The notes under the pieces were generated by a model that did no database searches, was not told the DNA's origin, and saw only the letters and a program-made list of their open reading frames with translations. This document shows, in pieces, positions 14,194 to 50,045 of a DNA stretch of 64,000 bases (position 1 is its first letter; each line of letters begins with the position of its first letter). Source of the DNA: Rhynchonema sp. JSB1_4 (lineage: Eukaryota; Nematoda; Chromadorea; Monhysterida; Xyalidae); the NCBI GenBank assembly GCA_030248065.1, contig JASAMV010009160.1, positions 1-64,000 on the forward strand, in the 5' to 3' direction. The translations under genes and the position numbers were made by a program.

Positions 14194-17100
14194 ATGTCGA
14201 CGCCCTCGAATTCGGTGGACGACGCGGGTGAGCCGCGTAGTGTGGATGACAATCGCAGACAAATGGACGCCATTCAGAATGCTATGCATTTGTTGAAAAG
14301 TTGTGGGCGACAGGTAAAAAACGGTTTGTTGTTTCGGCAAATTTATTGCCGAGTCATGGACAGTGTTCGGTTGCGTGCGAAGCGCCCAGCATGTTGGCAA
14401 TTTTCAGTGTCTGGGTCAAATGTGCAAAATCAAGAGTTGGCCGAATTGAGCTGCGTTTTGGATGTTTCTAAAATTACGGGCCGTGGTTCTTCCATGGTGG
14501 ATTGTTTGTGTTTGGTACAGTAGATCTGAAAAGCGGAGCCGAGGGCGGAGACCACCAGTGATGTTGTCAGGCCACGCCCAACCAGCTGCCGGCGAATTTT
14601 GGTATTGGGGTATGGTATGGCCAACATTTTTGCCAAACCTCTGACAAACACGTTTATTGCCATGTTCCTTGTTCAGGTTGGGCTAACTAGCAAGTGATTG
14701 GGGGAGGGATTTGGTGGCGCGAGCTGGCCACTCAACCCACTCAACTGGGGGCGCTGCACCTCGCCCCAAACGGTGGCTGTTAAGAATCGCAAAAATGTTA
14801 GCCAGAAAGGCCTGTTCATGCGAAGGAAATATCAGTGAGAACAAAGTGCCCAAATTATGGGATCTGTCCACATGAATACCTTTTTTGCATAATAAACTTT
14901 GTACTTTTCCTTTGTTTCAATTTGGGGACGTTTGCTTTTCGGGATGTTTATTTTTCGGGATTTTACCCGAAACTTTCGACCCCACCCGACCCCAACTACA
15001 TCACTAGATCGCTATCAGCGATCGAATAGTTGTATGATACGGTGGCTTATGACGGCAGCCATGTTGAAGCCCCGATACCAAAGGCCTACAATCCTCAATG
15101 CTGCCATCAAGCGTCCCAAAATTTCATATTCGAATCAATTTTCAGGATTTGTGTGAATTATTATCAAAAGAAACATCAGACATGAATGCTGCATCTACGT
15201 GGCGTCTCGACGATAGCTCATCGTTATCCAATTTGGGTGTGAAGTACGTTCAAGATGTTTTCTTTTTAAATTTAATTCGCTGCGATTTAAAGAGAGCACC
15301 GAAATTTTGTTGCAGAAGTTCCACAAGTCTGGCAGATGTTGACAATTTTGCCGGCGAATATTATGAAGTGGTTAGATTTGTGGACGCCGCTGCCGATCGC
15401 TGTAAGGTGATTTCGTGGCGATTAAAAACACGAGTTCTTGCTATTTTTATTCGTTCGTTTGTTATTATTTGATGTTGGCTTTGGTGCAGTGGTTTCTCTT
15501 GTCTTTCTTCCAGAGAGTGCCGATCCTTTTCTCATCAAACCCGAAAACATCGTTGCTGTTTTTGCTGGTCCAGCCTAACGTAAAATTTTTAGTCGATGCA
15601 AATTTTCCTTCTGTGCAAGTGTGGATGACAGAATTCTATGCTTGGATTTTGAGCTCAAGAATATTACAGAAAGTACGTGTTGAACAACCATGGGGACAAA
15701 ACTATTGTTTCAGCCCGAATTATCCGCCCTGCTGTTTCCGCTGTTTGCCAACATGTACCTGAGTCTGTTGTCCGCCGACAGAACGCAGTTAAAAGGTTCC
15801 GGCTTGGAAATTGATCTTTGGTATTCAAAGTACTTCAGTGGTGTTGAGAAAACGGTTTTTCTTGTTCAGCGCACGATTTCATGGTTCAATTTGGGGACGA
15901 GCAGGGCGCAATTTGGCAGTCGGATGTGGCTGAGCTGCGAAAAGTGACTGACACGAATGAAGCCAATGTGAATGAGACTGCCAGAATTATTAGGTTGGGC
16001 ATGGGAATAGAATCGGCTACGATTTTTATGGTTTTGAGTAAATCCGCATTCATTCTGTAACGCTATCAGCTGAACGCGATCACTTTCTAAAATGAACACA
16101 TTGGTGTCGAAAATGACGCCTTTTTCCTGTTGGTCCAGTGCTGTTCTGGTTAAAGTGTTTCACAACTGGCAGAATAATGTCAGAGGTTGTTTTGGTGCTT
16201 GCGGGTTTTCAAATTCGAGAAGTAAATGAACGAACTTGTAACACAGATCATAAAAAATGTGACAAATCAGCTGACCTGGCCGACCATACAAGCGCAAATT
16301 AAACAATAATTTCTGCGATAAAATTTACCACGTTATATAATGGTTTTAGATCAACGAAGTACGCGATGCGCATGAGCAGACCGACACTGGGCGTTTTGAA
16401 ACCGTTCCTAACTGCACATCCGTTGACGGAACGATTTGTCAGAGAGTACCTGCACATTGAACGTTGGTTCAGTTAGTCCTTTGTCAGGAGTCTGACGAAA
16501 TCCATTTCATTATGCTTCAATGTTTCAGCTTCCGATGGCGCGCCGAGGTCTGACGTTTGTGTGGGCGCTGTTTCGGGCAGTTTGATGGGCGAGGCGCAGA
16601 GAGCATGTTCGTCTGCTGAACCTTTTTGGCGATTCATTGTTGGATTCAATTTTTTATGTAGTCGGTCGACATCAACAATGATCAAATCAACAAGTCGGCG
16701 TTGCAACTCTGCTCGTATTCGTGTGTGGGATTAGGATAATTCGTTGAATTCCTTTCTGCGCTGTTTCGTTATTTCATTCTGTTCTGTTTGTTTATCAACC
16801 ATTAGAGAATGTGGGAAGGACAACTTCTTCGTTGGTTTTTGTTGGATTAAATTTTGCAAACTGTCAAACGGCGGGTGTATTTTTCCAGTGAACAAAACGA
16901 AAATGCTGTATGGCGTGCTGAAGGAGGATTTTGCGTCGACATCAAAGTTAAGCGGTGGTGGGGAGGAACAAATGTCGAAGAAGAAACGAGCGCAAAAATT
17001 GCGAGAGGCAAAAGAGAGCAAAAAGAGCAAAGACCCGAACGTGCCACCGTTGAGTCGTGTGCCTTTGCCCGATTGGTTGGTCTCTCTTCATTTCTTTCGT

Positions 17101-20100
17101 AAGCGACTAGACGGGACCCGTGCCCACGGCCCAGCTACAGCGCCGCGCCCGTGCCGTGCCACCCCCCCTCCCGAAGACCCATTAGCATACCCAAAGCTAC
17201 CCGTGAAAATTGACCCGTCCGCACCTCCGAGGGAGGGGGCCACAGACACACACACATACGTCTTCCTGTTTTAGCAGCCTAGTTAAGCGGCTTCATATGG
17301 CGACTATGTCCTATGTCGCGTATAGTTCACCACCCACTTTTATTTGCAATTAAAATGTGCGTGAAACGAAAGTTAGAAGATAACAGTCCCAGGATCCAAA
17401 ATGGCCAATCTTCGTCTTTTATATTGTGCACCCGAATGTTGTCCGAATGTTACCCAAAGGTGAGTACCGATTGTATCACAACAAAGCAAACATTCTGTGT
17501 GATGGTTACCAGGTCGGAAGTTGTGCGCAGCGAGAAGCGGCAAGCGCAGAAAGACTTTGGCAAACGAGTGAAATTGTCCGGTGCACACCTGCCCAGTGTG
17601 TGCATGTACACAATGTTGAATGCCGATGGAGGGTGGGTTTGGGGGAGTCAAGATTTGTTTTGCATTTTTGTTACCTTTTGCTAATTTTAGTGCATCGATT
17701 GCACTTGGATATCAATATTTTCGGCACTCTCTCGCGTCCGAAACAAATCGTTTTGTAGTTAGGGTCTCTGGATGTTAGATCTTGTCTGACAACGATAAGC
17801 ATCGGAACATATTTTTACAAGAAATATAATTCTGCGCACCCATTTTGCCACCTGTACAACACCGTTACAGTATGTCAGCATGTGAATTGAGCGAGGACAC
17901 ATCGATGCTGGCCGTGGGATACGGTAACTCGTCGGTGCAAGTCTGGTCGGCCACAAATGAATCGTTGAAATCGCTCAAACCAATCAGCGAACTGGATCAA
18001 TTGGAACAGGATGCTCGTTAGTGGACAGGGATCGATAAAACCGCTTGACCACAATTCTACTAGTTGGCCATGTGAAACTTGATTTGGTGATTTGACCTTT
18101 TCGGGTTAGACCTTCCTTGTTCACGTATTGAACGTGGTCCTTTATGTCCAATATATTTCAAGGTTCACTCTTTTCCTTATTTGGACGCGCGCAAAGGTTG
18201 TTCGTTAACCAGGTAAGACAACCAATAAACAGCAATAAAGCTGGTCGAAACTACTGCCGACGGCAAGTATCGACGTATTGGTGACAAAGACCGAATCAAT
18301 AACCAAGTTTGATATGTTTCCAATGTGTTTGCAGCCGACATCCACGAACGAATGCTCGACACAATGCCCGGCCGACAGCAACAAACCCTGTTCGGTCACC
18401 ACGGCAGTGTGTATGGGGCTAGCTTCAGTCCCGATCGAAGACTGTTGCTGACTTGCTCAGAGGATTCGACTGGTTGGATGGCGACTATTGATTTTATGTT
18501 GTATTTTGCTGCTATGTACAATGTACTCATCAAGATGTCAAAGATGTTCAGCTGCAAATGCAGTTAGTATCGCTGATGTTTCACCGCCGAATGACATAAG
18601 GTGAGTATTTTCACTCACAGTTCCGGTCGGTACGGTAGTACGTTCGCGAATCATAAATTCATTTTGAAGCAACAGCATAATATGCAAGATCTATAGCGTG
18701 TAGCGCGACTCGATGAACGCACGATTGATTGAATTTTCATTCCAGTTCGTCTGTGGAGCACGCAGCTGTGGAAGAATCTGGTTGTGTACCGTGCTGGCGG
18801 CGGCTTTCCCATTTGGGATGTGCAATTTTGGTATGGCTGTTGTTTTTAAATTTTTGTCAGATTTGCAGCGATTATTGGAAAAATACGTTACAAGCACGCG
18901 GTGGTACCGTGCATCTCACGTTACCGATGGGTTCATGTTTTTTGGAAGTGCCTGTGCCTGTATGGTTATGGATTCCACATCTGATGTTAAACGTAAACTC
19001 AAACTGCATAAGCTGTCGGTGTATTGCTCGCGCCAATGTCAATAACTAGAAACATTGCATTCAATTTTCAGTTCGCGCGGCTACTACTTCGCAACAGCGC
19101 ACGCCGATCGCACAGCTTGCGCGTGGTCAACGGACAGAATGCAGCCCATCAGAATGTTCACTGATCACTTATCGGACGTGTCCGTGAGTTTTTCTCTTTC
19201 ATTTTACATGTTTATGTTTGAGTGCTTTGAAAGAGCACAATCAAAGGAAGTCTGTTTAGGAATATTGTAATGAAGATCTCATTTCAATAGAGTGTACTGG
19301 CCATCTAGATTGAGTAAACCGCAAATTGTCGGAATCCCTAAATAGACTGCTTGACAACTTGAGAATGGCAGAACGATCTAGAAGGTTAGCTTTGTCTATC
19401 CAATTCATCTCTTTAAAGTGCATCGAGTTCCATCCCAATTGCAACTACGTGGCGACAGGTGGTGATGACCGATGTGTGAGGGTGTATGACATGCTCAATG
19501 GATCGTGCGTCCGATTCTTCACCGGACATCGGGTAGGGTGTATTTCGGTTTACATTTGATTTTCATTTTGGTTATGCGAAAACAGTTGGACAAATCATGA
19601 GCAAATTTTGGACTGTTTCGTTTCCCTTCCATCAGAAACATCTTTACTTTCCTGCCGAAGATCAGCCACAAACCACTCAAATTTCAAATAATGAGTTTCG
19701 AACATTTTATTCAATTCACGTGTTGCCTGTAGTCAGGTTTAATCACTCGTGTTCCGCGTGCGCGTGTAACATTCTGGCACCTTGTCTGTAACCCATTATG
19801 TACAAACTTACGAGCAGCAATATCGAAGGACAAAATAGCCAATAGAATAGTTCATAGTTGACTGTCATGTTATCCATCCAAGTGTGTGGTTGTATTCCGT
19901 CTTCCGCCATTCTTCCTCGCAATCTCAATTTCGTTCAGGCGAGCATTTGTCGCATGCGATTCTCAAATGACGGAAAATTGCTGGTCGCCGCAGGTGAGAT
20001 GATCTTCTCGTTCTTTTTGTTTCATTTTGTTGCGAGTCGTACCATGCGTTTCTCAGCTGAATGATTTTGTGCCGTATTTACACACGCAAATGAATAACAA

Positions 20101-22288
20101 AACCTATATCTGAATGATAGAGGCCTCCCAAATAAAAAGCAATTTACTTCATGATATAACCACAAGGTAAATGCACAACATCTGCTGAGCGAATGGTCAT
20201 TGTCGTTCTTATACCGCATCTGAATCATCAGCAGTTGGCCACACACATTGCATTGCTCATAAAAACAGTGCGGAAACCCAGTGCGTTAGGGTGAAGTCAG
20301 CAGCGGAAAAAAGGCGAAATCAACCTTGGTGGTCTGTCCGATTCGGTCTTGCCTTGGTCATGGGACTTTTTGTTGTAAAGTTCTTTCGAGATTTATGTTT
20401 GCCACTGAGTTCGAGTCCAAACCATTGTCCATTTTGTTCAAAACCCTTCGAACTACGTGATTTTCACAAATGGGGCAAATTACAGTAAATGTGGGGTATA
20501 CTGTCGGTTTCTTTTTCAAAGTGTGCGTGTCGGGAAAGGTTTTTTTCAAATGTGGCCAGTAGCGAAAATCGCCACTTGGTCCAGAATCCAAGTGGCGGTT
20601 TGGAAATAGAAGTGGCTATTTGAAGACGGAAGATGAAAACGAAATTCGATTAGCGGAATATCGCTATTCCGTTTTCACCTGGACGCTTTATTCCGCATTT
20701 CGCTTTTGTCTGAACACAGGCCAATCGAGAAACAGGGCATTGTTGGTCCTTGGCCGATCAGCAGGTTTGACACCTGCAATACTGCAGCAGGCAATTAATA
20801 AATTAAGTATGTCTTGCAGCAAGATTGTTTGTATACAGGGCACATTGCATGTCTCCTTCAGACATTGACCTTTTCCTCAAAAAATATGAAGCAAGGCAAG
20901 GTGACATTATGTATACAGTTTAACGTTTGGTCATCCAGGGAAACACCAGATCTGGATGTGAGCCAACAGCTTGGTTGTTGTATTTTACTTTTTATGGTAT
21001 GTTACTGGGTTAACATTTTCGAAAAAATACAAGAAAGGATAAGTACATGCACCTGCGAAGATTGTGGGAGATGAAAACCAGAAAAATGCCATCGAGTTTC
21101 CTAGTACATTGTTTGTTGTGCTCTGTTGCCATGTGATGGCGATATGATACGTAATGCTAAGCCGACAAACATGTTCTGCTGTCCAGATTGTAAATAACGT
21201 CAATATGGTGCGGCCACAAACATGAATCCGCCTGGGATAGCAACTCACAAAACACCAGAAGCTTTGTAAGTTGGCTGCGATCGATTCAAAAACTGTCTAA
21301 ATTTCAGGTTCCGACGGTCGTGTCCTAATTTGGGACGTTGGCCAAAGTCGTCTGTTGGCATCGTTGGCCCTTTGCGACAAACGACAGCCCATTTATTCAC
21401 TCGCATTCACCAGGGACAACACTGTGCTCGCTGCTGGTTCGTTGATGCGGTGTTTGTTTAGATTGAATCGTGTTTGCCAAGCATAACATTGTTGACATCG
21501 ATTATCTGCGTGGTCTATCTCGCGTGAAACATCACAAAAATTACATTGGTCCCATGGTCACTTGTTGGCATATGAAGCTTAATCTGACCCATCTGTTCAC
21601 ACGTTCACAGCAGGCAGGTCTGTTAGGCAAGCTAGCAGTGATGTAATAACACTCGGTTTTGCTCGTTTTTGGCCTGTTTTCAAAGACGGGCGAGGTGCCA
21701 GGCCTCTGGTGTTCGAACGCGTCTGGCCAATTGATCTCCAAAAAGGACCTCGAGCAGATCTTATTGCTCACAAAAGTGCAAGCTAGTGTAAATCAAATCT
21801 AAATGAATACAGTCGACTTTCTCGGTGAGCCACTTTTCTTATCAAATCCATCAAAATTCTCTTGATACGGGCTCACAAAAAAAGATATAAAAATTCAATA
21901 CCGAACCAAAAATTGTTGCAGGCGGTTGTCAACGTATTCACTTTCTCTCCATGGACCATCTCGCTGGTACTACTGATGTCGATGACGTCAGGTAGTTGGG
22001 ATGGTCGTTTCATTGTTTTTGTCGATGGATTGTGTCCCGTGTCCTAAAAAACAGGTTTTTGGGATGGATGAGCCAGATAATACTGACACTAAATTACAAT
22101 CACAGTATCACATTCCAGTCATAAAATTGCCTCTCAAAATGAAATGAACGAGTGCAATTTCTTTTTTCAGAACGTTAATATCGTCCGTGCAACTCACCTC
22201 CTATGAAACCAAGTCAACGCCCGTTCTGTCATTGAGATTTACGCCGAAAAATCTGCTTCTCGCTGTTGGTCCGTTCGATCAGAAATGA
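14194..22288 (+). CDS. TAF5: TFIID subunit TAF5
   Basis: This is the core scaffold of TFIID (and of SAGA in its paralogue). Seventeen exons with consistent phase give 633 codons: 14194-14313, 15146-15243, 15316-15406, 15714-15795, 15870-15993, 16350-16462, 16889-17075, 17513-17632, 17871-18016, 18335-18472, 18746-18830, 19072-19183, 19419-19532, 19939-19993, 21308-21436, 21922-21991, 22171-22288. In order they encode a LisH-like start (about residues 24-50) and the NTD2 helical domain (YYEVVRFVDAAADRCK, ELSALLFPLFANMYLSLL). A conserved NKTKMLYGVLKED segment and a lysine-rich linker ending DPNVPPLSRVPLPD follow, then a C-terminal WD40 propeller. That propeller includes LFGHHGSVYGASFSPDRRLL, FHPNCNYVATGGDDRCVRVYD and GRVLIWD, and the protein ends TKSTPVLSLRFTPKNLLLAVG. 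Length and order match animal TAF5. The region normally holding the last DNTVRLWD-type repeat (exon 16) is divergent. A poly(A) signal lies at 22450. Confidence 0.93.
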
Positions 22289-22852: not shown

Positions 22853-25800
22853 ATGTCGTCAGCCAGTGGCACATCATATGCCAACGAGGTGACATCGCCA
22901 GAGATGGAGATGGGAGGTGACGCTGTTGGCGGGTTTTTCGCCGATTCGAAAATGTGGGTTTTTTACTTTTGTGTTGTTCTGCATTTAGCTAGTTTCATCT
23001 GATGTGACAGCACGCGAACGGAGTCCAAGGTGAACGTTTTTTGCAATATTAGGTTTATTGGGTTCGACTATTACACATGAATTTAGGCACGCACATTTTT
23101 GAAAGCTGTATTTTGAAAAGCTTGAATACCTGTCCAAGCAATTGTCAAAACTTCTGAAATTGAGCAGGAAACACGCCGATCTAAAGGCTATGTTGGATGG
23201 CAACAAGGACAATCTCAAGATGGAGGCCATGAAACGCATCATAAATGTATTTTTTTAATTTGTGACGGAAGTGAAGTGCTTGCAATCGTTTTCGCTTGTG
23301 TTCCAGATGATGGCCAAAGGTCGCGATGTCTCTGATCTGTTTCCAGCTGTGGTCAAAAATGTGGCCGCCAAAAATCTAGAGGTTGGTTAAAAAACAGCCA
23401 AGCTGCTTTCTAAGATACGATTCAATGAGCATGCAAATTTGCGCTCTGCTGCAGGTGAAAAAATTGGTCTACGTCTACCTGGTGCGCTACGCCGAAGAGC
23501 AACAGGATCTCGCCTTGTTATCAATCAGCACCTTTCAACGTGGTCTCAAGGTACATATATTTGTGTGCAGTTCTTTTTTTTTAAATGGGCCGTGGCTCAT
23601 TTGTCAACAATTTAGTGGCTCATTTTGTACACATTTGCCTAAGTCTTGTGGCTCATTCAAAATTTTAGTGGCCCAATGAGTCACCATTAGTGCCTGGCAG
23701 AAAACCTGTTTGTGTGTGACTGTACATATTGCGGTTCTTCGCTTGTTCAACTTGAACAATTTTGTGCCGGTAGTGGGTGAACTTCGTTGACGTTCACGCC
23801 CAAGTGTCACGGCACCTGTTTGACGTCCTATGTTTAGTGAATGAAGTCTGGTCAACAGGAGGAATTTGTTCAAAATTTTTCAGGTGTAATTCGTCTGTCA
23901 GAATTTAGCTGCAAGTTAGCCGTTGCTGGGCGCTTTTTGGCATTTGGTGCGAGCGAAACAAAAAAGTATAGGTGCACGTTGCACCTAAACCTAGTTTTAG
24001 GTGCAAATAAAAATATCACAATGAAAACTGCAGCCCAGAATTGTCTAAAAAATCTGTGGTCGTGGTCAACACGCGTTTTTCGACGTTTCACATTCTATGA
24101 AACTCCAGTAGATAATCAATAAAGTACAAGCCAAACACACAGGACCCAAACCAATTGATCCGAGCGTCAGCCCTACGTGTCCTGTCGAGTATCCGTGTGC
24201 CCATGATTGCACCCATTCTCATGTTGGCCATCAAAGAATCCATGCGTGACATGTCACCGTATGTGAGGAAAGTGTCCGCTCACGCCATACCCAAACTATA
24301 TTCGTTGGTTTTATTAATTTTTGCATTTTTCGTTTATATAAACTGACGTAATTATAATCATATTTAAAGTCTGGACCCAGATCTGAAAGAGCAACTGATC
24401 GAAGTTATTGATCATCTAATGGCCGACAAAACCACGGTGGGCCATAATGTCCTGATTATGATAAAAAGAAAGACAAATTAATATTTTATGAAAATTCCTT
24501 GTCTGCAGTTGGTTGTTGGCAGCGCGGTGTACGCCTACGAAGAGGTGTGCTCGGATAGACACGATCTATTGCATCGGCATTATCGCAAATTGTGTCACGT
24601 GATCATGGATGTGGACGAGTGGGGACAGGTGGGTTACGGTAGTTGACTACTGTATTGAGTTACCGTATGTCAATTGCTGGTTATCTTCGACGTGCGTGTC
24701 AAGCAGTGACAAATTTGCCCCCAACGTGTGTTTGCTGATGCTTCACGCACGAATGACTAGAAACCCTGAGCTCTCTGTAATCTGTTTCTGGAGCCGCCTG
24801 GAGGACATAAATAAAGCAACAATTGTTAACAGGTAAACGGCAAAAATTTATGTGTCACTGTAAATTATTTGCAGGTCGTCATTGTAAACACGCTAACGCG
24901 CTATGCACGGACACAGTTTGCTGAACCAACCGTAAGTCAATTTTGTCACTTTTCCCAACGGAGTTCTTTTACAATTTTTGAAATTCGTCTTTCAACTCCG
25001 AAGGCTGTTGAGTATGGTATAATTTTTGAAAAATTATATTTTTGTATCATCCAACCAGGATCAAGACAATGACGAGCAAGAGAATGGCAAGAGTTTCTAC
25101 AGTGATGATGAGGAGGAAAATGAAACATCAGATGATGAAGAGAGTGAAGAAAGCGATGCTGATAACAAGACAAAGAAGAACAAACGCAAAGCACCGTACG
25201 AAATGGACCCGGACCTGCGGCTGTTGCTTAAAAACACAAAGCCGTTGCTACAAAGCAGGAATTCTGCGGTTCGTGCCTGTTTCGGTTTTGTTTAAATCTA
25301 TTTGTTCAGTGAGTTTTAGCATTTCAAACGCAGGGAGCGTGTGTATCGTAGGAAATGACCGCGATTATCATTGTGCGAAATGTTTTTTGTTGAATTAATG
25401 GTTTTCTTAGTAAAATTTTTGAATCCTGTGATAATCATACGCTTTAAATCTGCTGATGTTTCACGCGTGAAAACCCAGGAAGCCTGTGGCAACAATCATA
25501 TCGACGTATCCAAAATCACCTTTTAAATTAAAATAAAAACGAAAGAACCATCAATAATGGGAAGATACTGCCGTATTTCCGCTTGCACGATGATATCATC
25601 ATCATCGTAGTTTTAGGGCGCGCCCATGTAGGCCAGGGCCAGGGCCGGGGCCGGGGCCGGGGCCATGAAAAATAATCTATGTCCGAGGCCCTGGCCCCGG
25701 CCCCGGCCCTGGCCTACATGGGCGCACCGACAGGGCCGGGGCCGGGGCCGGGGCCGGTGCGAAACATTTTTCTGGATAGGCGACGTTAGAACTACAGGGT

Positions 25801-34544: not shown

Positions 34545-36691
34545 ATGTACCGCAATTTTCAAACCCAAGATCGAAGTAAGCCAATGGAGCAGCAGCCGTG
34601 CGCTAGCGTGAATGGCGAAGTGCCAATTCAGGGCTGCCCTCGTGGCAAGGGCCTTCATTCGATGGATAACAACAACGAAACCACGATCACAAATAATAAT
34701 GATCCATGTCAGCAACCATTCGAGGTTTTTGTTAATTTCGTTTTTTCACGTCTGGCATAGTTGACTGTTCACGCTGGTGGATTCTCTTGATATATGCGGT
34801 CTCACAAAAATTTTTCAAAGTTTTTTGCACGAATCGATGCTACATAGCTATGTGACATGTTTTTACATTTCAGCTTCGCAAACTGCCCGATTCTCTCTTT
34901 TCGCCTTCCCATCTGATTGACATGATGTCTGAATGCAGCTCAAGCCTAATGCCTTTGCCTGACGGTTAGGCAGACTTGTTTCAGCATTTTTTTATTACAC
35001 CTAAAATTTATTAAATAAATAAGAAACTGTCAGGACTACACATACGGCCTTTATGCATCTCGGATTTCGACAAGAATTTTCCTTCGCTGCTCTCGCAACT
35101 AACTGACGTCGGGGAACCCACGCAGCAGCAGTTTGAAGGTTGGGCTTCGTGATGTTTCACAACAGAATGTAACCTTCGTAAACGTTTATGTTATTTTTCA
35201 GCCCAATTTCGTTCCATGCAATCCTGCCAACGAGCACTGTTCTATGTGACTGTCATTGAAGACACTGACACAAACAAGGTAATGTTTCATCATTCGTCGT
35301 TGGATGATGTTCATCTTATAAATGCCTGCCGTGTTCAGATAGTGGCGGCAGCGACATTGGTGCTCGAACTCAAATTCATTCATTGCATGGGTCATCGAGG
35401 TCGAATAGAGGACGTGGTGGTCGATGAATGTATGAGGGGCAAACAGTTGGGGAAAATGTTAGTTTGCCGTTGACTGTTCTGGTGCTAACGACAGGGGGAA
35501 CCGCAACATAATTTTGGTGGAACAAAATAATTGTAAGTCTTTACTTACAGTTTGTGATGTGCGAAACCTTGTTTAGGCTGAGCCCACGCGCAGGGTTGGA
35601 AAAAAAAATTTTTTTTTAAACAAGTTTTTTTTTTAAAAAAAAAAATTTTTTTTTAAAAAAAAATTTTTTTTTTAAAAAGTCTGAGATTCGGGGAAATTTT
35701 ACCAAATTTGCCTAAAAAACGCGCAAAATCGCGAAAAAATGCAACTTTAATTGACAAGTCACTTTTGTGACTTGGTTTGCATCACTTATCAAGGGTGTTT
35801 ACGTCATTTAGGTACGATCCAACAGTCTGTGCTTGATATGGACCGATGATTGCTGCTCTGTGGTATCGGACACAACAGTTTGTGGCCGAATAAGCAAGAT
35901 TCACTCATAAACCACACAGAGTTGAGAATATAAGCTGCAGAAATACTTGTCGGGCAGCTGAATCAGTCGTATATGACCGACCTGATGGGGTATGACATCG
36001 AAGTACCATGTAGGCACATGCATACTGTGTCCCATGTACCAAGGGAAGGTATAATAACATCATTTGGGGTATCTTAGGTACCAAATACATGCCCCAAAGG
36101 TGATTTTGTGAAGAAAATTTGTCGACCCTTGAGAAAAAATGACAAAAAATAACCCCCAAAAAGGCCATTTTTGGACGTTTTAGAACATTTTGTTCCCCCG
36201 AAAATTTTTAAAAAAAAAATTTTTTTTTTAAAAAAAAATATTTAAAAAAACTTTTTTTTTTTTAAAAAAAAAAAAATTTTTTTTTTTAAAAAAAATTTTT
36301 TTTTTTTGCCCAACCCTGCCCACGCGACACCACTTAGAATCACCGGTGATATACTTTTTGCTAATTTATAGTCTATGCTCATATCGGTGCTGTTGGTACG
36401 ATCGGGACTTTAACTTTTGCTCTCTACCAAGAATATTCATGATATACAGTGGTCATCACATTAACCTGGGCACCAAACTGTCGGTCAGTTTCGCCACAGT
36501 AGAGGGTTAATAATGTAAAGGAGTCCGACTGTGTTTGCAGTCTGCTCGAGCGTCTGACCATGCTGGGCCAACGACTTGGTTGTTACAAGATGTCACTCGA
36601 GTGCAAAGATCATCTGGTACAATTCTATGAAAAATTCGGATACAAGGTCGATCAGGGCAACAATTTCATGGTGAAACGCTTTGTTAAGTGA
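34545..36691 (+). CDS. GNPNAT1: Glucosamine 6-phosphate N-acetyltransferase
   Basis: The enzyme transfers acetyl from acetyl-CoA to glucosamine 6-phosphate in cytosolic UDP-GlcNAc synthesis, which feeds chitin and glycan production. Six exons with consistent phase give 240 codons: 34545-34724, 34874-34964, 35034-35138, 35202-35278, 35339-35457, 36541-36691. The first 60 residues are a polar, Asn-rich extension not usual in the family. The GNAT fold follows: [16 protein letters not shown], then [20 protein letters not shown] with the R-G-K-x-L-G acetyl-CoA pyrophosphate loop. It ends [20 protein letters not shown] and FMVKRFVK. The last intron (35458-36540) contains a complete MITE. The start could be a later methionine (codon 14), which would shorten the extension. 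Confidence 0.93.
35591..36318. mobile_element. hAT-like MITE in GNA1 intron
   Basis: The ends are CAGGGTTGG and CCAACCCTG, with a perfect 8-bp target duplication CCCACGCG at 35583-35590 and 36319-36326. Next to each end are about 80-100 bp of alternating A and T homopolymer runs. The 728-bp interior has no coding capacity. CAGGG ends plus an 8-bp duplication fit the hAT superfamily. Confidence 0.88.
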
Positions 36692-37983: not shown

Positions 37984-40900
37984 ATGCCTCCAATTAAAAT
38001 CACCAAAGTCCTGTCCTGTTCGTCGGAGCTGCCCGACTTCCCTGCCGAAAATCTCGTCAAATCACAAGCGTTTGCCAAATGGAAAAGTCAGCCGGGCCCT
38101 GGTCAGTTTATGAGATTATATAATATCTGGTGTAAAACATCAGCCAGCCGACCCATTGCTCGGTTTAACTGATCACTCGCTATCAGAACATATTTGTGAT
38201 CCTGTAATCCAGCCAATCGCACGTCGACTGTTGTGCTGCAACTGGAGCACTCAACATCGATTGAAACATTAGATATTGGCAATGATGGATCCGCCTTCGT
38301 TGAAGTGTTGGTCGGACGATCAGCCACTGGACACGGGGATATGGAGGTTAGGTTAATATAGCTTGTCTGTGAAACATCACCCACAAAGCGAACAAGTTCA
38401 GGTGTTGCTACCCACGGTCACCATGATGTCGCTCAAAGAAAGCCGCGATCAAACGGACATGCTCAAAGTGCGCATGTTCAAGAAAGCGGACTTTGTGCAG
38501 AAAACCGCCGAACAGAAATGGGACATGTTGAAAGTTAGATACAATTTTGTGACTAATGTTTTCATTAGCAGTGCTACGCAGCTATTATTGGAACCTAGTC
38601 CGCATGGCGTTCATATTTGTGACCGTGAAACATTTCCTGGCTGGTTGTTTGATTTTTCATAAAAACTCGCGTTGAATAGACTATCAGCGAGCCTGCCTTT
38701 CTGCTATAAATCAATTTGCCAGCGATAAGGTTCGCAGATTCGATTGGAATTAATGTTTTGCACAGAACGAAAATTGATACCTTGTATTTGATAGAATAAT
38801 GGTAGTGCTTCGGGGATCACCAGTGACAACACAGTGGAACTTAAGTTAGTCCAATATACTTATCAATTCAGATTGTCTGCACTCAACCATTCAACAAACA
38901 GAGCGTCTTTGGTCTGTCATTTGTGCAGTTGATGTCTCCGGAAGAAGCGAAAGTTTGTGGACTTGGCTTTGTTCTTAATTTTCCGCTAGTTGTTTGTTAA
39001 TTTTTCAGCGCAACACTCAAACGCCTGCAACAATTTCAACCCCAAATGTTTCCAAGCAGTTCGGCAAATTCACACTGCGTCCGGAAACTAACGATGATGT
39101 TTCACCCACGTCGGGTGCTCTTATGTTCGGGAAAGCACAGGCAGCTGGGACAAGTTCGTTGGAGGTAAGTTCTGGTGCAGGTTGGTTGTGGCAACTAGTT
39201 TTAGAACGCTGCGTTGATAACCCAATTCTCGACAACATCAAATTGGCACTGTTTGGGACGGCCAGGTCTTTACTGAGTGAAACATAAACTGCTCAGCGAA
39301 TGTGCTTGTCCAGTCGTTTTTCATTGTTTATTTTACGGTTGTGTCTTCGTTCAGCAAGACGAAAATTCTATTCTACTGCTGCCGGCGTGTTTCTCGGTCG
39401 CTTGGACCAAACCATGCAGACCGTCGTGCAAACACGGTTATGTGTGTGCTGCCATCCATGTTTCAGGCACCTCGGGGACAGGGTACTTTCGAAAGTCACG
39501 TAATGCTATTCTAACAAGATATCCACACGCAGGCAGCCAAACCGTCCGTCGTGCCACGCGAACCATCCAAGACAACCAGTGTCACGCCCAAACCAACCCC
39601 ACAACAGCCAGTGCACAGAACTTCGACTGAAACATCAGCCAAAGCGAAAGGTCCCGAGGTCGAAAAACCGAAGCGAACGAAACTGGGCGATTTTGCTGCC
39701 GCAGCAAGCACACCCAAACGAACAAGTGACACACCTATATCTGAGAGAGTGCTCAATGCCGGTAAAAGGCCCAGACCCGCCCAGCAAGGGTCAGGGTCCA
39801 AGCAGTCACACAATGGTGCCCCTACGTCAGGGAGCAAGCCTAGAAGGGCTGCTGCTGCCTCGGTGAAGAAAGTTCCGTTTGAAAAAGTGTGTGGTTTGTT
39901 GATAAGTGTTGTTATATTATCTGTATGAAACTTCAGCTAGTTAGTTTCTGTGTGTTTCAGCTGCTTCATGGCTGCACATTCGTGTTAAGTGGTTTTGTGA
40001 ATCCACAGCGTGGCGACCTGCGAAAGAAAGCACTGGAGATGGGTGCTAAATGCTCAAATGATTGGAATGATAGATGCACCCACTTGATATGTGCGTTTGC
40101 AAACACGCCGAAAGCCAGAGAGGTCAGTATTGTGGTTTGTCATGTCTTCAAAACGCTGTTTTTTGCAGTTCATGCAGAGCTGCTGACGAAACAGTACTGA
40201 CGTGATTTATTACTGTCGCTGAGATAACATCAGCCAGGTGGCCGTAGGCGCACTGGCTGTATTCGCACTTGCACTGTACCCACATGCCCTGATACACATG
40301 CGCCGATACCTTTGTCCTGTCAGAACCGACTACAGTGATAAAAATTGAGTCAACTTTGTTCCACATGAAAGCTCGTCCTGTTTACTCAGGTGCAGCGCAG
40401 TGGTCATGGTCATATTGTGAGGAAGGAATGGATAATTGATGGACACAGACAACGCAAACGGATGCATTGGAGACTGTGAGGCTGGCTGGAATTGATGATT
40501 TGGTTGTTTTTTGTGTGGGTGACTCAAGAAAATTGACTGAATTGACCGCCAGATGTCAAATTGTACTCGATGACAGCAAAACATTCTTGTTGTTCATCCA
40601 GATTGCCTTGAATGGAAATGCATCTTAAAATGTTTTGCCGATAGCGCATAGTCAGAATAATTCTTAGCTCGTTGATTGCAAAGCGACACAGCCGTTTCAG
40701 CAAAAGAAGAACTAAAATTAGCGCTTGAACAATATCAGTACTGGCCAAACCAATCAGATTTATTCTTCAGCTATGCGCTCGACCCGAAGCAGCAATCGAA
40801 CACGTTCTCGGACGATGAATTGGTCGCTGATGACAACAGTGAGGATGGTGAAACATCAACTGATACTCAGGTAGGTGTTTGAATGTCACGGAGTTGTGTT

Positions 40901-41887
40901 GTCAGCCAGTGCAGCAAATAATCAGCTGCTTCTATAGTTAGCTTTTCACATTATTTTTCGGTGATTGACAGTATAATGTCGGAAAACGTTGCATGCTCGT
41001 TGATCTACCCGTTTCTCGGGCATTGTCCTCTTTCTGATTGCGGTGCCCATAAAATTTGAAGAAACATCGAATGGGCACTTATGATCAACAAGTCTCATTC
41101 ATCCGGCATAATGGTAAGTGTGGTTGAGACAAGCGGGCAGACTGAGCCGATACGATCACTGAGTTTGTTTGCAACACCAACCAATCACAGTTATCGTTTG
41201 CAGAGTCAGCAACCAGGCACATCGCAACAGTCCGATCCAGACTACAATCCCGAGTCTGGGTCCGGTTCTGAGTCGGACAACGAACCGGACGCAAACTGGG
41301 ACTCGGAGGATACGGATGACGAAATCGAGAGGATCAAGGCCGGACGGACGAAAGGAAAGAGGACAACGGATAAAAAGGAAGAGAAAGTGGAGAAGAAGAG
41401 CAGGTGCGATAACCAATTTTATATTACTTTTCTGTGAAACATCATCCTGTCAAATGCATGATTCGGTAAGGTAACTTTGGTTTCAGTCTCCAACTTGACG
41501 CCGATGGTTTGCCCGTGCTGCCAGATCTGTTCGATGGCATGCGATTCTTTATTTTGTCAGATGTGACGAAAGAGAAACGACGCCAGGTTGTTGCCTAATT
41601 GCCCTGATTGTTCAAGGCTACTTTCTTCTTTTTTGATTCCTGGTCTCAGTCCGATCGTGCATATCCAGGTGACCCGCTACGTGACGGCGTTCAACGGTCA
41701 GCTCGTCTCATACATGGACCCGACTACCGTAACCCACGTGGTCACCGACAAAGCGTGGAATGCGGACTTTGATGAAATTGGCGCGAAAAATTCGAAAATC
41801 CAAATAGTCAAGCCTGATTGGCTGGTGAAATGCGGCGAAACGAACACTCTGGTCGATATTGAGCAGTTTTTGGTGCAAAAGTCATAA
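37984..41887 (+). CDS. XRCC1: DNA repair scaffold XRCC1
   Basis: XRCC1 is the scaffold of base-excision and single-strand-break repair, binding DNA polymerase beta, ligase III, PARP and PNKP. Twelve exons give 642 codons, close to the vertebrate length: 37984-38101, 38213-38346, 38402-38533, 38872-38952, 39009-39164, 39533-39886, 39961-40122, 40390-40475, 40684-40870, 41204-41403, 41487-41586, 41669-41887. The XRCC1 N-terminal domain (about 1-155) shows VLSCSSELPDFPAENLVK, LDIGNDGSAFVEVLVG and FGLSFVQLM. A Pro/Lys/Ser-rich linker follows, then BRCT1 (about 325-408; GCTFVLSGFVNPQRGDLR, HIVRKEWIIDGH). An acidic linker (about 471-537) precedes a C-terminal BRCT2 (about 537-642; VTHVVTDKAW, KPDWLVKC). 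The boundary at 40684 uses a weak AAAG acceptor. Most introns over 80 bp carry a TGAAACATCA-like motif. Confidence 0.93.
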
Positions 41888-42954
41888 TTGTCAATTTTAA
41901 ATCTCGGATGATTTGACAGGTCAAATATAGGGTGACCCAAAAGTACCCTCAATATCGTTACTCTTGTGACCTTGTTAAGAAGTAGACAACTCGGATAAGG
42001 TTGAATTGTAGCTCATTGAAATTGCCACGCGATTCTACGTGCGACTAACACCGTTAAATCAATTCTCCATGCCGTTGTCTGATGTTTCAAGACTGGATTT
42101 TTTATGCGCCTTTTGACCATAATTTTATCAGTAAGCGTGCGGTGTTGGTCACTCTTGGTGGACTTCTTGAGTTGAAGCTACTGTTATTGATTTAATGACA
42201 TTTGTGGTTTTGACCAGCGTGAAAGTTGTTCACGGACGGTAAATAAAGAACTTTTACGCTGGTCGAAGTCTTAAAAAATATCCTTAGCTGTTTGAGTTAC
42301 CAAGACAAACCTTCAGCAAGAAGCATGCGTGAGACATCAGGTAATTGAACAGAGCGCCATTTTAATAGGTTTTGTTGCATGGAGAATCGCCTGGTGAGTC
42401 CAATGAGCTACAAATCAACCAGTTTCTGTGCGTGTTTGGCTCACAAAGGCCACAAATAGTGACCAAGTTGAGTGTACTTTTGGGACATTCTGTACATCTG
42501 TACATGTATACATTAGTTTGCAAAAAAAGTTGTCATCTAAATAGCGGGTCTGCATGTTTCAGTATGCATTAGATTTGCATGTTCTTTTTTCGACAAATTG
42601 CTGTGGTATAATAGCCTTTTCACCACAAAATAGAATTATGGCGTGGATGGGCCGTGTGTTTGTGTGTTCCTATGTTTTCATATCCAATTACTCAATTTTG
42701 TGAAGTGTGTGTGTTGTATTGTCATTGTAATGTTCTCATGGCAACCAACGTAAAGGCAACCTGGTTATACTTCTTAGAGCGCTAGGGCTTTCTTGTTTGC
42801 GTCATGTTCAAAAATACCAGCGAATTGTTTCAGCACGTTTTGATACGTCACAAACCACCACAAACGTATGTAAAAGCGGTGTCAATGTAACAAAGAACAA
42901 GACATTTTTCTGGCATGGTGAGACAAACAAGGTGAACAGACGATTGCCTTGCAA
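41888..42954. other. Convergent intergenic DNA
   Basis: This lies between the 3' ends of XRCC1 (plus) and the vWA gene (minus). AATAAA at 42242 may end XRCC1. One exact TGATGTTTCA lies at 42080-42089 and a one-mismatch copy at 42330-42339. No exon is seen. Confidence 0.4.
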
Positions 42955-45900
42955 TCAGGTGGAGCGGCAATTTGAATTATAGGTCCGTCGAATTCGTTCT
43001 TTCAGCTGACGGAATTCATTATCATTGATAAACACATTATCGCGTTGTCCGGCGATGTCGACCAGTTGTGTCTCGTTCACTCGCACTGTGCCTTGACCAG
43101 CGTAGAAATTCTGGAATGCAACGCTGCCATTGTGAATCTTTTTAAAGCCTGTCACGCTCGTTTGTGAGGCCGACGATTTGGTTGCCAGTCTGGGATTACG
43201 TTTGGTACCAGGTATTATCTGGTGAGGTCAATACGACACAATACGTCAATATTGGTCGGGAGCACCGAACAGGGCAGTCAATAATAAGATTCAGTCTGCG
43301 CTGCGTTAAAAAATATTTCGGTCACTCCCGCTGACCTGAGATCCAGTGAACGAGCAAACATCTAAACATCAACTAACATCGTAATCGTAGTCGGTTCCTG
43401 TCACAAGCAGTTCCATTTTCGGCAAACGTCTGACGTTCTCAGCTGCAGCACGCGGGTCCTGGAAACAAGCGCAGCATCACTCCATGAACGTTGTGCTGCA
43501 GCGCGCATTCTGATTCACAATCCGACTTTAATTACAGTCGCACTCTACAGACAGAACATTCTTCACAACGACCGACAGGAATGAACGGTCTCATTGCAAA
43601 ACCTGTTGACTCTGATTGTCTTGATATATCAGGCACATATCAAGCCTAACCCCAACCTGTTGACTGTATCCATCGGTGAAAACCAAGGTCACACGTCCAT
43701 TCACTTCGTCCAATGGCCGGAATCCGTGTCGTTCCTGATTGCGATCGTCAAATTCGTCTGCTGCCATTTCCAGCGCTCCGGCTGAAATAATTGGACCCCA
43801 AATTATTTTGATATTAATAATGCTTGTGAAACATCAGCCAATTAGTCACCAACCAGTATCCGTCCATCCGCCGTACCATTTAGCATTCCTTATATCGTTG
43901 ATGATCGACTCCTTGTCAAAATGCTTGCTGAATCGGAATTCTGGCTGAAGTACCGTGTACAGGGTAACCCGCAACAAGTGCGGAAACTCTTTTATGAGGC
44001 TATATCTCAGCCGCGCTTACACATGGAGATAATTTTGGTAATGCTTTCTGAAGCATGGACGATCTATTTTTTTGTGTTAAAATTCGGTCTCCTCACATGC
44101 CATCGTGAATAAGCTACGCAGCATAAACAGATCAACGCCAAATCAATCTTGCAACCGCGGCCAAGATCAAGCGACACAAAATGGGGGTTTCGTACTTGTT
44201 GGGTCACCCTGTATTATCGCGAATGATCTGCCAATTTTCAACGTTTATTTATCAAATGCCCAAACGTATAAAAACTGCATAGTACGATGGTTCGCTTTGA
44301 ATGCAATATTGCTGTGAAATGCAATAGCAAGAACTCGGAACTTGATTTAAATGGGATCCGGACAGTCATGAGTCAGTCAGGCGAATGACATGACTTCACC
44401 AAAATTTGAGCAATTCGGAAAACTATTCTTCCAATAAATGTGCTATAGTTAATAATGCTCACCACAACGTATCCGGGCGATGAGTATTTCAACATGGCCA
44501 CTCTTGTTGTCTTCTCCCCAACTTCCAGATCGTTAACCAGATCGACGGCCATATCCTGATGTTTCAAAGAGGGTATGAAACATTTATTGTGGTTGGTATT
44601 CACACAAGAGTCAGGTATGAATAGAAAAATGCTGGACCTAAATAATCTTCTTTGTTCAAACATTTAAGGTTCAGATTAAAAGTACAGCGGAACCTTGAAT
44701 CGTTGATGTTCGTCCATAACACTGCCCGAGAAGTCAACCACCAACTGAAGGTCCAACTCACAACCTGCGGAGAACTACGTCGTAATAAAACTGGCAATGT
44801 TCAATAGTGCTATAACTTCGCGTTTATGTCTCTCACCTGATCGTCCCTCGGTCGTTGTAGTGGCTAAAAATATTTGGAAACTTGGAAAGTTTTGGCCATC
44901 TGGTGCATTCTCACTGACGATAATCCGGTGCATCGACCGTCTGTGAGACCACAGTCGAAACATTAGGCAGTCAAAAAACGCGCTGCATAGTTTCGCATTT
45001 GACAATCCTGAATCGAAACTCAGCATGTCTACTTGAATCATCACTCACGTCTTTTTGTTGTTGTTGTCGTTGTGACGGGATCCCTCTGCGGTCGACGACA
45101 TGTCAAGCCAATGCGCAGATAATCGGCCACTTTCATAGCGGCGTCCGGGGCCTGGTCAGGGTATATTTTGTTCGTAAAAACTGATTTTCGCTGTGTCGTA
45201 ATGCAAAACTAAATTTGTTGCAATGGATTTTTGAAGTGTCTACACCTCGATCAGATTATCTTCATCTCCACCAGCCCAACGCAGCATGTTGCGACGACCA
45301 GACTGTTCGGTCCTGAAAAAAATGTCATGTGGTGTGTATCAGTCAGCTGACTTTTTTTGAATTAAAAGTGTTATTTTGACGCTTAGCAGTTTGGGAACGG
45401 CTGTTTACTGAAATACTAAATTTTTGCCTTTGACTCTTGTACCATAACACAGAGAACAAAGGTTATACGTGATCCAAGCGCAGTTGGATCATAGTTCGAT
45501 ATCGGTCAAAAAGCACATCGAAACATTTCGACCAATTAGGCACTTTTTTCTATTTCGAACAAGTGGCTGATTGTGAAACATCATTCAGCGACTCACGTTT
45601 CCTCTTCACGTAACATCACCAGTTTCAAGTCCACGCCTGGTGTATTCCTGAATTTTGCTGCATACTCGTCTGATAGATCGAGTTGGTCCACGCCGTTGGT
45701 TGGTTCGCCATTCACCAGACCATCCGATACGAAGAACACCAGCGTTTGATCGGTCGGCTCTGTGAATGGGGCTAGCATTTGGGTGTTGTTTGTTGGGGTG
45801 GAATATACCGCTCAGTTTGGACAGCCAAAGCTTGGAGTGTACGTAGCGGCTTAGTTCAATACCAATGAGTTTAGCTCTATTTGTTACGTGTTACCTATCC

Positions 45901-47207
45901 TTGAAATATATTTGTTTTGGAAAACAAAATAGCCTTTGATTTCAATGAAGTGGAAAATAACAAACTTTTACTGAAGACCATTGCTCTGCTAAAAGCAGCC
46001 GACCACTACAAAGCAAACTGTTTCTCGGTGTTACAGCTTGTGTGACAGAATGTGAATTACATAATATACTCTGACAATTCTTTTGGGAGAAACTTTTCCA
46101 ACGCGTTGCTTAAAGCGCATGACGCGTGCACTGGCTTTAGCGGTCACGTGACTTCTGTAGCCAGTGCACGCATAATGCGCTTTACGGATCAGGCAACGAT
46201 GTTGAAATATTTCTCCCAAAAGAATTGCCAGAGTATACCTCCTTTCCTAGGCAGTCGTGCATCAAACATTTCCCACACGGTCATCCAGGCCAGACCCATT
46301 GGCGTGTTGCCAGAGAATAAGCGTTGTCGATCAACAAACTGATGCCACTGACGATTGGTCTGTGCGTGAATGTGAAACATCAGCCACGTGAAACAGCCGC
46401 CAATGTAGGTTGTCGGCGTGATCAAATCAGGCTTCCTTCATTGTGTGCCCAGCGTGAAAGTCTGTGACCACCGATGTGTACACTCCGTTACAATTACCCA
46501 ATCTGTATTGACCGACGCGTGCAGAGCTCTCAGCGCAAGAAAATGTTTTAAGGCAGCACACCTTCAACTTTCCAAAGTTGACATTACTAAATCGATTGCC
46601 CTGTTTGTTCGGTCCGAGATCGGCCCATTTCTTCGCTTTGCGTTGTGAGCCCCAATTGAAGGCTGCCACCCGGTGCTCGGCCACGTCTGAAATCAATCAT
46701 CTGTGTTCATCATTCGATTCTGATTGTTTCTCGGTTGTTTCAGGAGTCCCAGTGCTATCGACTGACCACTCAGATCGATCACTCTGGCCAACTGTGTGCC
46801 CAAAATGAAGGCATCCCTGGCCGCTTGACTTGCACTGGTGTCCAGCACGATCAGCACATCCGTGCGACATGCGGCCTCTTGCGCTCGAATTGGGTGCAGG
46901 GCAAGGCACAACTGGAAAAGGAGTTATGATGGAGAGCGTCAAGAAGGCATGTCTTGGTCGTATAATTTACTATCTTATTATTTGACTTTGATCAAAGTAA
47001 AATGCATTGTAGCGTACCAGTTGCTTTTATTTGTCTTGTAGTTGTAGTGCTAGTTGTCTTGTCTTGTAGTATTTGATGTTGATGTACAATATTGATGTCC
47101 CAGGAAACTTGGTCATCGCGCTTATTCCCATAAAAGCCAAAGCGACTAACCAAGACTGCGATAATGCTCTCCAAGTGAATCATTTCGAAACACGGAAGTA
47201 ATCGCAT
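42955..47207 (-). CDS. Secreted protein with two vWA domains
   Basis: This is an extracellular protein, probably in metal-dependent adhesion or matrix binding. Thirteen exons with consistent phase give 491 codons: 47207-47151, 46911-46767, 46686-46583, 46338-46239, 45771-45597, 45312-45246, 45151-45049, 44764-44694, 44555-44463, 43944-43854, 43781-43657, 43458-43378, 43218-42955. The signal peptide is made by joining exons 1 and 2 (SIIAVLLCLALHPIRAQ). vWA 1 has DVLIVLDTSAS, the GNTPMG threonine and FFVSDG. A Thr-rich linker follows (PVTTTTTT). vWA 2 has LVVDFSGSV, GGWTDTG and LVFTDG. Both MIDAS metal sites (DxSxS, T, D) look intact. Two-vWA secreted proteins are common in nematodes, but I cannot name an orthologue. 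The donor of exon 4 abuts a MITE. Confidence 0.85.
46067..46235. mobile_element. TACTCTG foldback MITE, copy 2
   Basis: It has the same TIR (TACTCTGACAATTCTTTTGG) and palindromic interior as 5180-5355, with TA at 46065-46066 and 46236-46237. It sits in an intron of the vWA gene. The TA next to its right edge supplies the T of the GT donor of the preceding exon (read on the minus strand as GAG|GTATAC), so the insertion lies two bases into the intron. Confidence 0.85.
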
Positions 47208-47320: not shown

Positions 47321-47679
47321 TGCAGAAAAATAACATTGAATTGATGACATTTATTAACGAAGTGAAAACAACGACAGCTCTACTTCTTTCGCTCATTGAT
47401 TACCCGGGATTTTCGGCGGAAAAAATTAATATATCATACTATAATAACTTTCACGCGGCAGTGAGAAATGCAATGAAAAGTAAAATCGCGCCCAAAATTA
47501 ATGTCGGCAGAGGGCGGGCGCGAAAGTCAATCGTGGGGTCCGGAGTTTTCCGCTTTGAGCCCCACACTGGGACCAGGGCTCTATTTGGGGTAAAAAGTTA
47601 TCCAAATCAACCCAAGAAAGCAACTAGGGTCATTTTCGTACATTTTTCAAAGGAAACCGTGCACACAAGGCGATTGTGA
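47321..47679 (+). CDS. Unrecognised ORF
   Basis: This is a 119-codon open frame starting 114 bp from the divergent vWA gene. I recognise no domain. The first half is amphipathic (NIELMTFINEVKTT), and the second is basic with a GRGRARK stretch. Open frames continue in other phases to about 48071, including a stretch with CPFCN and CYEC cysteine pairs, so this may be one exon or a decayed coding unit. It could also be chance. Confidence 0.25.
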
Positions 47680-50045
47680 TAACATTCAACATGAGTTTCA
47701 CAAAAAAGGTCAAAAATATCGCAATATCGCAAATGCCAGGTGATATATTTCAAGTCCGAAGCTCGACCGCGTTCAAATGTCAGCCACAAAAGCGGCGGCC
47801 GGAATATCGTGATCGGTGTGCCCTTTTTGCAACTTGGATCCAAAAATGAATGGCAATCGTCATCCTGCTGTCGTCCGAAAAACGTCATTCCGGCGAATTC
47901 CGATTAAACACCCCTGCTACGAATGTAGTGACACGGGGGTGGATTCGAAAACTTTGCGAAAAACCTCGAAATGTGGGGTCGCAAATACAGCTTGCTGGAT
48001 ACGTTGAAATGGATATTCAATACCGAACTATTGCGGGACCAGGATCATTCATTATCCAGCTTGTGAATTAATTTTATTCACAATCATACGAGTGCAGTAG
48101 TTCTTCGCTACTGATGTCAGAAGCTGTGCTAAATGGCCATAAAACGTGTTGCAGAAAGATGACACTGTTTCATGCGTGTGCTGATAGTTTTTTTACACAA
48201 CACAGAGCAGTGCCAAATCATTGCCAAGTCGACAGTTTTTGATGTTCTCATTTCGCTTGACATTGAAACCATCACCGTTTAGTACTACTGTAAGTTAGCA
48301 TTTTTGTTTTGCAGCAGACGTTAGGATTCAGCATTTGCTATGTTGCGTAAGTTTCAACGGGATATGAAGGTCGTGCATGCCACATCATAACGCCAATGTT
48401 TTCGCTGCTTATTTTCCATAGAAATTCTTTTCCAAAAGCAGCAACATGATATTTTATGAATTGTGCCACATTACTGTACGCTAGCATTTATCTTACGACA
48501 ACCGTCTGCTCCTGTACTCTATGACTGCACACATGGCAAAGTCTGCGACTGCGTGCGTATTGAAGTTATTGATTTGAATCACAAATCGGTTATACTCCGA
48601 GAATGATTCGTGTTGTGTAGAAACATCAGCAAATCGCTTTTTTTAATCAATATTGACCTGCGCTCATTTTTAAACCGCTGATGTTTCACAACAGACATGA
48701 AGGCCATACCGGTGGAGACTCAGGCTGATAACATAACGATATTTTTTAGCATCACTAGGCACTTTAATTCGACTGACATATTCAAGAACAAATTATATAT
48801 CGATAAAAGTGCGGCAGTAGATACTACTAGTGAAATCACGTCTGTGGTTGCCGTAAGTGTGAAAGTTATTCAGGTTAGAAAAACGGAAATTAACGCCACA
48901 TTCCAGTGAAGGTGCGACTTTCGGTAATTTTTCATTTCTTTTCAGATTTTTTATGCTGCGATCATGTTCATTAAAAAATAAAGTATTTTCAGGTTTTATG
49001 CGCCGTGGAATGCACTCTTTTCCAATTCAAACGCCGCATAAATAAAGTAAGCGACAAAATTCAGTAAACTGACCATTATAGTGATAAAAAATGAACAAAA
49101 TAGCATAAGATACCAGCAGAGATAATATGGGGATATACATACCAGGATCATGAGATAAAGTGTAAACAGAGCAAAAATAAACATGCGACAACTTGTGGTA
49201 ACAAGGCATAACATCTTGGAATGGTATACACAATCACCTGCTTCTGTGTGAAAACAGTCATTTTTGATCAGATGGAAAGCAAAACATAAGAAAGGTACAA
49301 AAACAGGTAGACAAACATAATGAATAGGAATTCAATGGCAGGTGAATGGTAATAAAGATGGTGGCCAAAAACCATTGCTGATTATTGAGTGCTGCAAACA
49401 TTTGAGGATACAAATAACGCTAATTCGTGAGAATATAAAATAAATAGAAAATTCACGCTCTCTTTCCGACTATGAATGACATATGAAGGCATCGAATCCA
49501 CAGAAAACAAACAGCAGAAAACAACGTCCACACACAGAAATGCTTGTGAGACTTTTTTTACTTTTTTTATTTTGCAAGCATCTTCTGTTTGAACGGATGT
49601 AAAACACATATGTACGAAGCACCAGAAAGAGCTCACTAATAGCTAAATATGAACCGAGATTTTTAATTGCATCAATCAAGTTAAGAGCATCATAGTTGTT
49701 TACAACTAAAATTGATTTGTTCTCGAACAACCAACACAATGAACAAAAGCACGCGAAAGTGTAGCGCACAATGTGGCCCAAAAACAATCTTGAAGAAATT
49801 TCATTTGCACACAAACGGGACCACGAATGAAGCAGTCATTACAACGTGACCACTCCCACAACTCGTACCTCAAAAGGTTCGCTATGGTTGGGCAAAGTGT
49901 GGCCATAAATCGGAGATTAGGCATCCTAAGAAGGATTCAGTTGAACAGCTTACCTTACCTACCAAATCCCAAATGTGCAACGAAAATGCCTTCACAAAAA
50001 CAAAGCGACAGCGACTAGCACTCATTCATTCATTTTTATTGTTCT
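47680..50045. other. Region without a firm gene
   Basis: A 70-codon plus ORF (48697-48909) lies next to a TGATGTTTCA motif. The minus strand at about 48996-49370 has strongly hydrophobic open frames (LFTLYLMILVCI, FCSFFITIMVSLLNFVAYF) that might be exons of a small multi-pass membrane protein. Another minus ORF covers 49470-49814. None matches a family I know, and the splice sites do not settle a model. Confidence 0.3.

Follow-up and report, generated by a model that had tools for sequence, protein, structure and literature searches.

The window analysed here is a stretch of 64,000 nucleotides from Rhynchonema sp. JSB1_4 (contig JASAMV010009160.1, positions 1 to 64,000), whose genome is marked as that of a nematode by 57 matches to Col_cuticle_N, the N domain of cuticle collagens. 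A 10-nucleotide motif, TGAAACATCA, occurs 18 times in this window, ten times on the plus strand and eight on the minus, at every one of the coordinates listed in the initial annotation of this DNA. Its core in the opposite, promoter sense is TGATGTTTCA, and the strand given with each site below is that on which TGATGTTTCA reads. The overrepresentation claimed for the motif is borne out by 100 dinucleotide shuffles of the window, which yielded a mean of 0.39 and a maximum of 2 exact copies, although the chance figure of 0.12 given earlier was a little low. Allowing up to one mismatch, the window holds 34 sites against 9.91 expected, including the one-mismatch copies previously noted at 38133, 39926 and 42330. 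The sequence GAAACATCA is present at 15170 and 48620 as reported, and four of the exact copies (33420, 39628, 43827 and 46373) are extended by TGGC to read TGAAACATCAGCCA. The regions at 5-13 kb and 50-64 kb, said to be free of the motif, indeed contain no exact copy and a single one-mismatch copy at 6441.

The genes that can be recognised around these sites include XRCC1, identified by Pfam matches to XRCC1_N and BRCT (to our knowledge C. elegans has no XRCC1), and a gene with an Adaptin_N open reading frame (ORF) at 29172-29639; the motif is found in both orientations within the former and near the latter. Seven of the 18 exact sites lie, by inspection, inside plausible coding ORFs, most of which have no Pfam support themselves, Pfam backing instead the neighbouring exons of the same genes. 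Four of the seven encode Glu-Thr-Ser (all minus strand): 25121..25130, 33420..33429 in an ORF weakly matching AP3B1_C_2 (E 0.0021, below the curated cut-off), 39628..39637 in a plausible XRCC1 exon lacking a Pfam match, and 40849..40858 in a further plausible XRCC1 exon recognised by inspection of the ORF. Two plus-strand sites encode Asp-Val-Ser, in ORFs that likewise lack a Pfam match, namely 30368..30377 close to the Adaptin_N ORF and 39095..39104 in a plausible XRCC1 exon, while 21525..21534 (minus) is read as Val-Lys-His-His. The statement that all exonic copies read Glu-Thr-Ser is thus incorrect, and the description of the motif as mostly intronic is not established; the 11 exact sites outside these ORFs are counted here together, without division into intronic and intergenic.

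Some of these 11 sites can nevertheless be placed. Position 38370..38379 (minus) falls either at the beginning of the XRCC1_N exon (ORF 38357-38659, assigned by Pfam) or immediately before it, and 41435..41444 (minus) falls in a likely XRCC1 intron, between the ORF at 41060-41437 and the BRCT ORF at 41567-41884. The site at 42080..42089 (plus) is located within a repeat with inverted ends (41926-42494). By eye, 44557..44566 (plus) may overlap the splice acceptor of a minus-strand gene. Position 46373..46382 (minus, with TGGC) is at the edge of an ORF on the minus strand (46192-46437) that has no Pfam match. The site at 48679..48688 (plus) is accompanied by a one-mismatch copy in the opposite orientation at 48619-48628. 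The remaining sites are exact matches at 18574..18583, 25454..25463 and 35150..35159 (plus), and at 43827..43836 (with the TGGC extension) and 45574..45583 (minus).

The motif is a feature of the whole genome. In 204 Mb (5,747 contigs) there are 37,556 copies of TGAAACATCA on both strands compared with 345 of the reversed word, a roughly 109-fold excess, and the 14-mer TGAAACATCAGCCA occurs 2,190 times compared with 3 for its control. The shape of the motif was analysed in a sample of 343,855 bases, comprising the window and 32 of 35 loci, all of them from contigs in the lists of 10-mer or 14-mer matches; loci L001-L008 and L029-L035 were chosen for the 14-mer, so that the sample is denser in the motif than the genome. 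Its guanine plus cytosine (GC) content is about 45%, and a value of 43.60% is given for Plectus murrayi (PMC8022722); taken with the PIWI-like genes described below and with XRCC1, this would suggest a plectid-like genome. The 93 exact sites in the sample align as [TG]-TGAAACATCA-GCCAG, or GCTGGCTGATGTTTCACA in the promoter sense. From -60 to +90 nucleotides (nt) around the core no further position stands out, and the flanks are unrelated to one another. A weight matrix finds 161 sites at 12 bits and 131 sites at 14 bits on both strands, where its reversed form finds 16 and 3. The core varies very little: a second-order chain predicts 2.2 exact sites where 93 are present, the thirty one-mismatch words together give 86 against about 50 (a sum of single expectations), and two-mismatch words (515) are close to the 528 expected. 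Neighbouring sites share an orientation in 44 of 103 pairs, that is, they follow no orientation rule. Two other words, GGTATTGG and CCGGGCCGGG, are also strongly overrepresented in the sampled loci. The 40 kb at positions 10001-50000 of contig C17 (L010-L013) contain no exact copy of the motif, and carry long ORFs that by eye resemble the immunoglobulin-domain repeats of a giant muscle-type protein.

The motif and variants of it also stand upstream of genes for small nuclear RNAs (snRNAs). Searches with Rfam models located U2 at 9 places, U1 at 10, U5 at 8 and U6 at 9, and 8, 10, 7 and 4 upstream stretches, respectively, were analysed. Seven of the ten U1 genes have sites scoring 14.2-20.3 bits at -59/-58..-30/-29, with the promoter sense directed towards the gene; two contain exact TGATGTTTCA and five the variant TTATGTTTCA. 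In U5, five of seven stretches score 13.6-18.1 at -60/-59 and the remaining two reach 4.4 and 0.0 in that position; TTACA replaces TTTCA in six of the seven genes. A weak or variant match (0.1-11.3) lies at -62/-61 in seven of eight U2 genes, and five of the eight read GGCTGG[CA]TGA[TC]GTGACA there, with TGAC in place of TTTC. Three of the four U6 stretches, two of them near-identical, contain CGCTGATGCTACAGG (variant core CTGATGCTACA, score only 3.8) followed by GATAAAAGG. Downstream of the element, GACTACCC is present in six of ten U1 and all seven U5 stretches; the U1 copy at L052 has an exact core followed by TATAAAGG where GACTACCC would be expected.

A shared, fixed place in front of several classes of snRNA gene is the defining trait of the proximal sequence element (PSE), and the motif has such a fixed position and orientation before the polymerase II snRNA genes, strongly at U1 and U5 and as a variant at U2. 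Several of the snRNA genes have arisen from one another by recent duplication, and the strength of this evidence consequently resides in the number of gene classes that share one place. We consider it very probable that the motif is a PSE-type snRNA promoter element of this nematode and infer from the family that it would be bound by SNAPc. In sequence, position and orientation the motif agrees with a PSE at the U1 and U5 genes and, as variants, at the U2 and U6 genes; the dispersed copies differ in being strictly TTTC and in lacking GACTACCC. They form a variant of their own, because the sample shows no enrichment of the cores of U2, U5 and U6 type (1, 0 and 0 copies) and hardly any of TTATGTTTCA, the core seen most often at U1 (3 against 1.8 expected).

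A role for the dispersed copies is suggested by the PIWI-interacting RNA (piRNA) promoters of other nematodes. According to PMC6436959, the piRNA motif of Plectus sambesii and P. murrayi is nearly the same as the SNAPc motif and occupies a similar position with respect to the start, the peak of 21U sites in Plectus lies 42 nt away from the motif, and among the species surveyed PIWI is found outside clade V in Plectus only. The initial annotation pointed out that TGTTTCA resembles the upstream core of nematode piRNAs, and this has proved a good lead. The Rhynchonema genome has 54 matches to the Piwi domain, and three PIWI-like loci, on C1663, C3368 and C4595, have exons 39-56% identical to Drosophila Piwi and ordered along the protein, the C-terminal exon reaching 52-55%; five other Argonaute loci among the matches listed are 33-41% identical. 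Judged by pairwise identity and not by a tree, the three loci appear to encode PIWI-clade Argonautes. Their match patterns are nearly alike, as would be seen with recent duplicates or uncollapsed haplotypes. The GTTTC core of the dispersed sites is related to the genome's own SNAPc motif, as in Ruby-type promoters, and U1 spacing would put the start about 36 nt past the core and therefore the 21U end 43 nt past the G of GTTTC, in agreement with the Plectus distance.

We therefore favour, at a probability of roughly 60%, the reading that the motif is a variant of the genome's own PSE whose dispersed copies are likely to be piRNA promoters resembling the Ruby motif. SNAPc would bind the 37,556 exact copies (near matches, extrapolated from the sample, bring the number to about 50,000), RNA polymerase II would begin very short transcripts some 36 nt past the core at the bound sites, and these would become PIWI-bound 21U-RNAs (piRNAs), as in Plectus. 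As each copy would be a small transcription unit of its own, the copies could lie within or near genes and face either way. Of the four explanations proposed in the initial annotation, two remain as candidates, that of a DNA-binding site and that of promoters driving intronic small RNAs. Like the Plectus upstream motif (a SNAPc-like 5' motif plus the Ruby GTTTC), the Rhynchonema sites are dispersed in a nematode with PIWI, have a GTTTC core and are close to the snRNA element of the same genome; in contrast to Plectus, their 5' half is weak and no downstream signature was seen in the sample. With the C. elegans Ruby motif, CTGTTTCA, they share a TGTTTCA core in front of what are presumed to be very short polymerase II units, whereas the full word CTGTTTCA shows no enrichment in the sample (27 against 29.7 expected) and the C. 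elegans 21U loci are clustered on chromosome IV (PMC6436959). The same text describes Pristionchus-type piRNAs as dispersed and genic, in introns of active genes; the Rhynchonema sites are similarly spread through genes, but are also found in plausible coding exons.

Several results weigh against piRNA promoters, or against the link to snRNA genes. No clear peak of YRNT or T was found 28-48 nt downstream of 128 or 169 sites, although many YRNT are present in random sequence anyway. Y at +34, the expected offset, has z 1.4 (128 sites) or 2.5 (169 sites), and z 2.5 is equally reached at the unrelated offsets +5 and +48 (128 sites) and +5 and +54 (169 sites). GC content, used as a stand-in for melting temperature, shows no downstream valley beyond scatter at 124 sites (15-nt bins, standard error 0.012), and the low-melting pausing signature of Ruby-type promoters is not seen by this measure; we therefore say that the sites would work like a Ruby-type promoter and claim no membership of that family. 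The 37,556 exact cores are over ten times as many as the 3,082 sites of the P. murrayi scan (PMC6436959), for which the threshold was different. At the 93 dispersed sites GACTACCC is absent (GACTA occurs twice, [AT]GACTA not at all), and their near-invariant core is unlike the U2, most U5 and the U6 cores, which adds to the lack of enrichment of the snRNA-type cores described above. Of the three U1 genes without a strong site, one has a decayed form in place and two, similar in their upstream sequence, have no motif, and a second forward-sense match (9.6-12.0) is unexplained, which lies at about -221 of the five U2 genes (L036-L040) that read GGCTGG[CA]TGA[TC]GTGACA at the PSE. The seven sites in ORFs depart from a purely intronic arrangement, and the canonical SL1 22-mer, searched as that word only, is absent from the genome. 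On balance we lean towards the view that the dispersed sites work as piRNA promoters.

Two further observations concern these data. CA is found at +33 in 18 of 124 sites, compared with 5-13 at the other 23 offsets listed, and the second U2 match at L036-L040 reads TGAAACATT or CGAAACATT, some 160 nt further upstream than the PSE. A search for SmY RNA returned no match, and was uninformative as its control was silent too.

If the piRNA reading is correct, the piRNA or piRNA-like start sites of this nematode could be read directly from DNA, and one could ask how the machinery of snRNA promoters came to serve in defending the genome. A core that is near-invariant at 37,556 places, unlike most of the genome's own snRNA cores, would also allow selection on individual piRNA promoters to be tested. 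A more speculative idea, which we regard as doubtful, is that tens of thousands of near-invariant SNAPc-type elements are selected genome-wide, even in coding exons, and make up a layer of SNAPc-driven micro-transcription units far larger than known nematode piRNA loci and partly different in purpose, with new sites arising by local small changes. In a single apparent case of such a change, the C3788 relative of the window repeat that holds the 42080 site carries a further TGATGTTTCA that the window copy lacks, at a place where the alignment has gaps. Thirteen comparisons of site conservation between repeat copies were uninformative, the sites being few and mostly weak. No comparable motif count was found among the open-licence papers listed by the searches, and none of the titles listed by a full-text search for the motif letters deals with this subject.

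It is conceivable, but in our view unlikely, that the dispersed sites, though bound by SNAPc or some related factor, mainly serve a role other than piRNA production, such as chromatin marking, polymerase pausing or the production of unstable short RNAs in which PIWI has no part. The near-invariant core with few degenerate relatives, the missing YRNT, T or GC signature downstream and the very large number of sites would all suit such a role. The presence of PIWI-like genes in the genome speaks for piRNA promoters instead, as does the closest precedent, in which such motifs are piRNA promoters (PMC6436959).

That the motif belongs to an unrelated sequence-specific factor, for example an architectural zinc-finger protein, and overlaps the PSE by descent or chance appears improbable. 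The dense spread in unique sequence regardless of orientation could be read in this way, as could the scarcity of U2-, U5- and U6-type cores; against it, the core is common to the U1 promoters, and the 5' half GGCTGG[CA]TGA to five of the eight U2 promoters, at a fixed place and in a fixed orientation.

A splicing element or the footprint of introners, both put forward in the initial annotation, is very improbable. The 44557 copy may overlap an acceptor and some other copies are near splice sites by eye, but the sites are neither confined to introns nor held to one orientation, and the flanks of the 93 exact sites are unrelated. Both orientations within genes, together with the seven of 18 sites in plausible ORFs, speak against either explanation, and among 576 combinations examined for target-site duplications none stands out convincingly (best multi-match 6 against 1.5 expected). 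That a transposon or some other dispersed repeat has carried the motif through the genome is hardly credible and was rejected, for although the 42080 copy is inside an inverted-end repeat with a relative on C3788 (76% identical, 213 of 279 columns, core intact), the flanks of the exact sites are unrelated and sequence repeated within the sample, 18.3% of the total, holds only 2 of the 93 exact sites, where about 17 are predicted by area, and 7 of the 131 14-bit sites, where about 24 are predicted.

The window also contains other repeats. Inverted ends of the sequence TATAGGGTGACCCAAAAGTAC, which we take to resemble those of mariner-type elements, bound both 41926-42494 and 41924-44215, and a related copy is present on C3788. 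A palindromic element of about 175 bp at 46065-46237 resembles a miniature inverted-repeat transposon; among 40 scored candidates it has matches in both orientations in at least 38 other contigs, with identities of 88-93% in one sense and 81-86% in the other. The segment at 35590-36320 belongs to a dispersed repeat that recurs in L017, L026 and L035 at about 90-96% identity.

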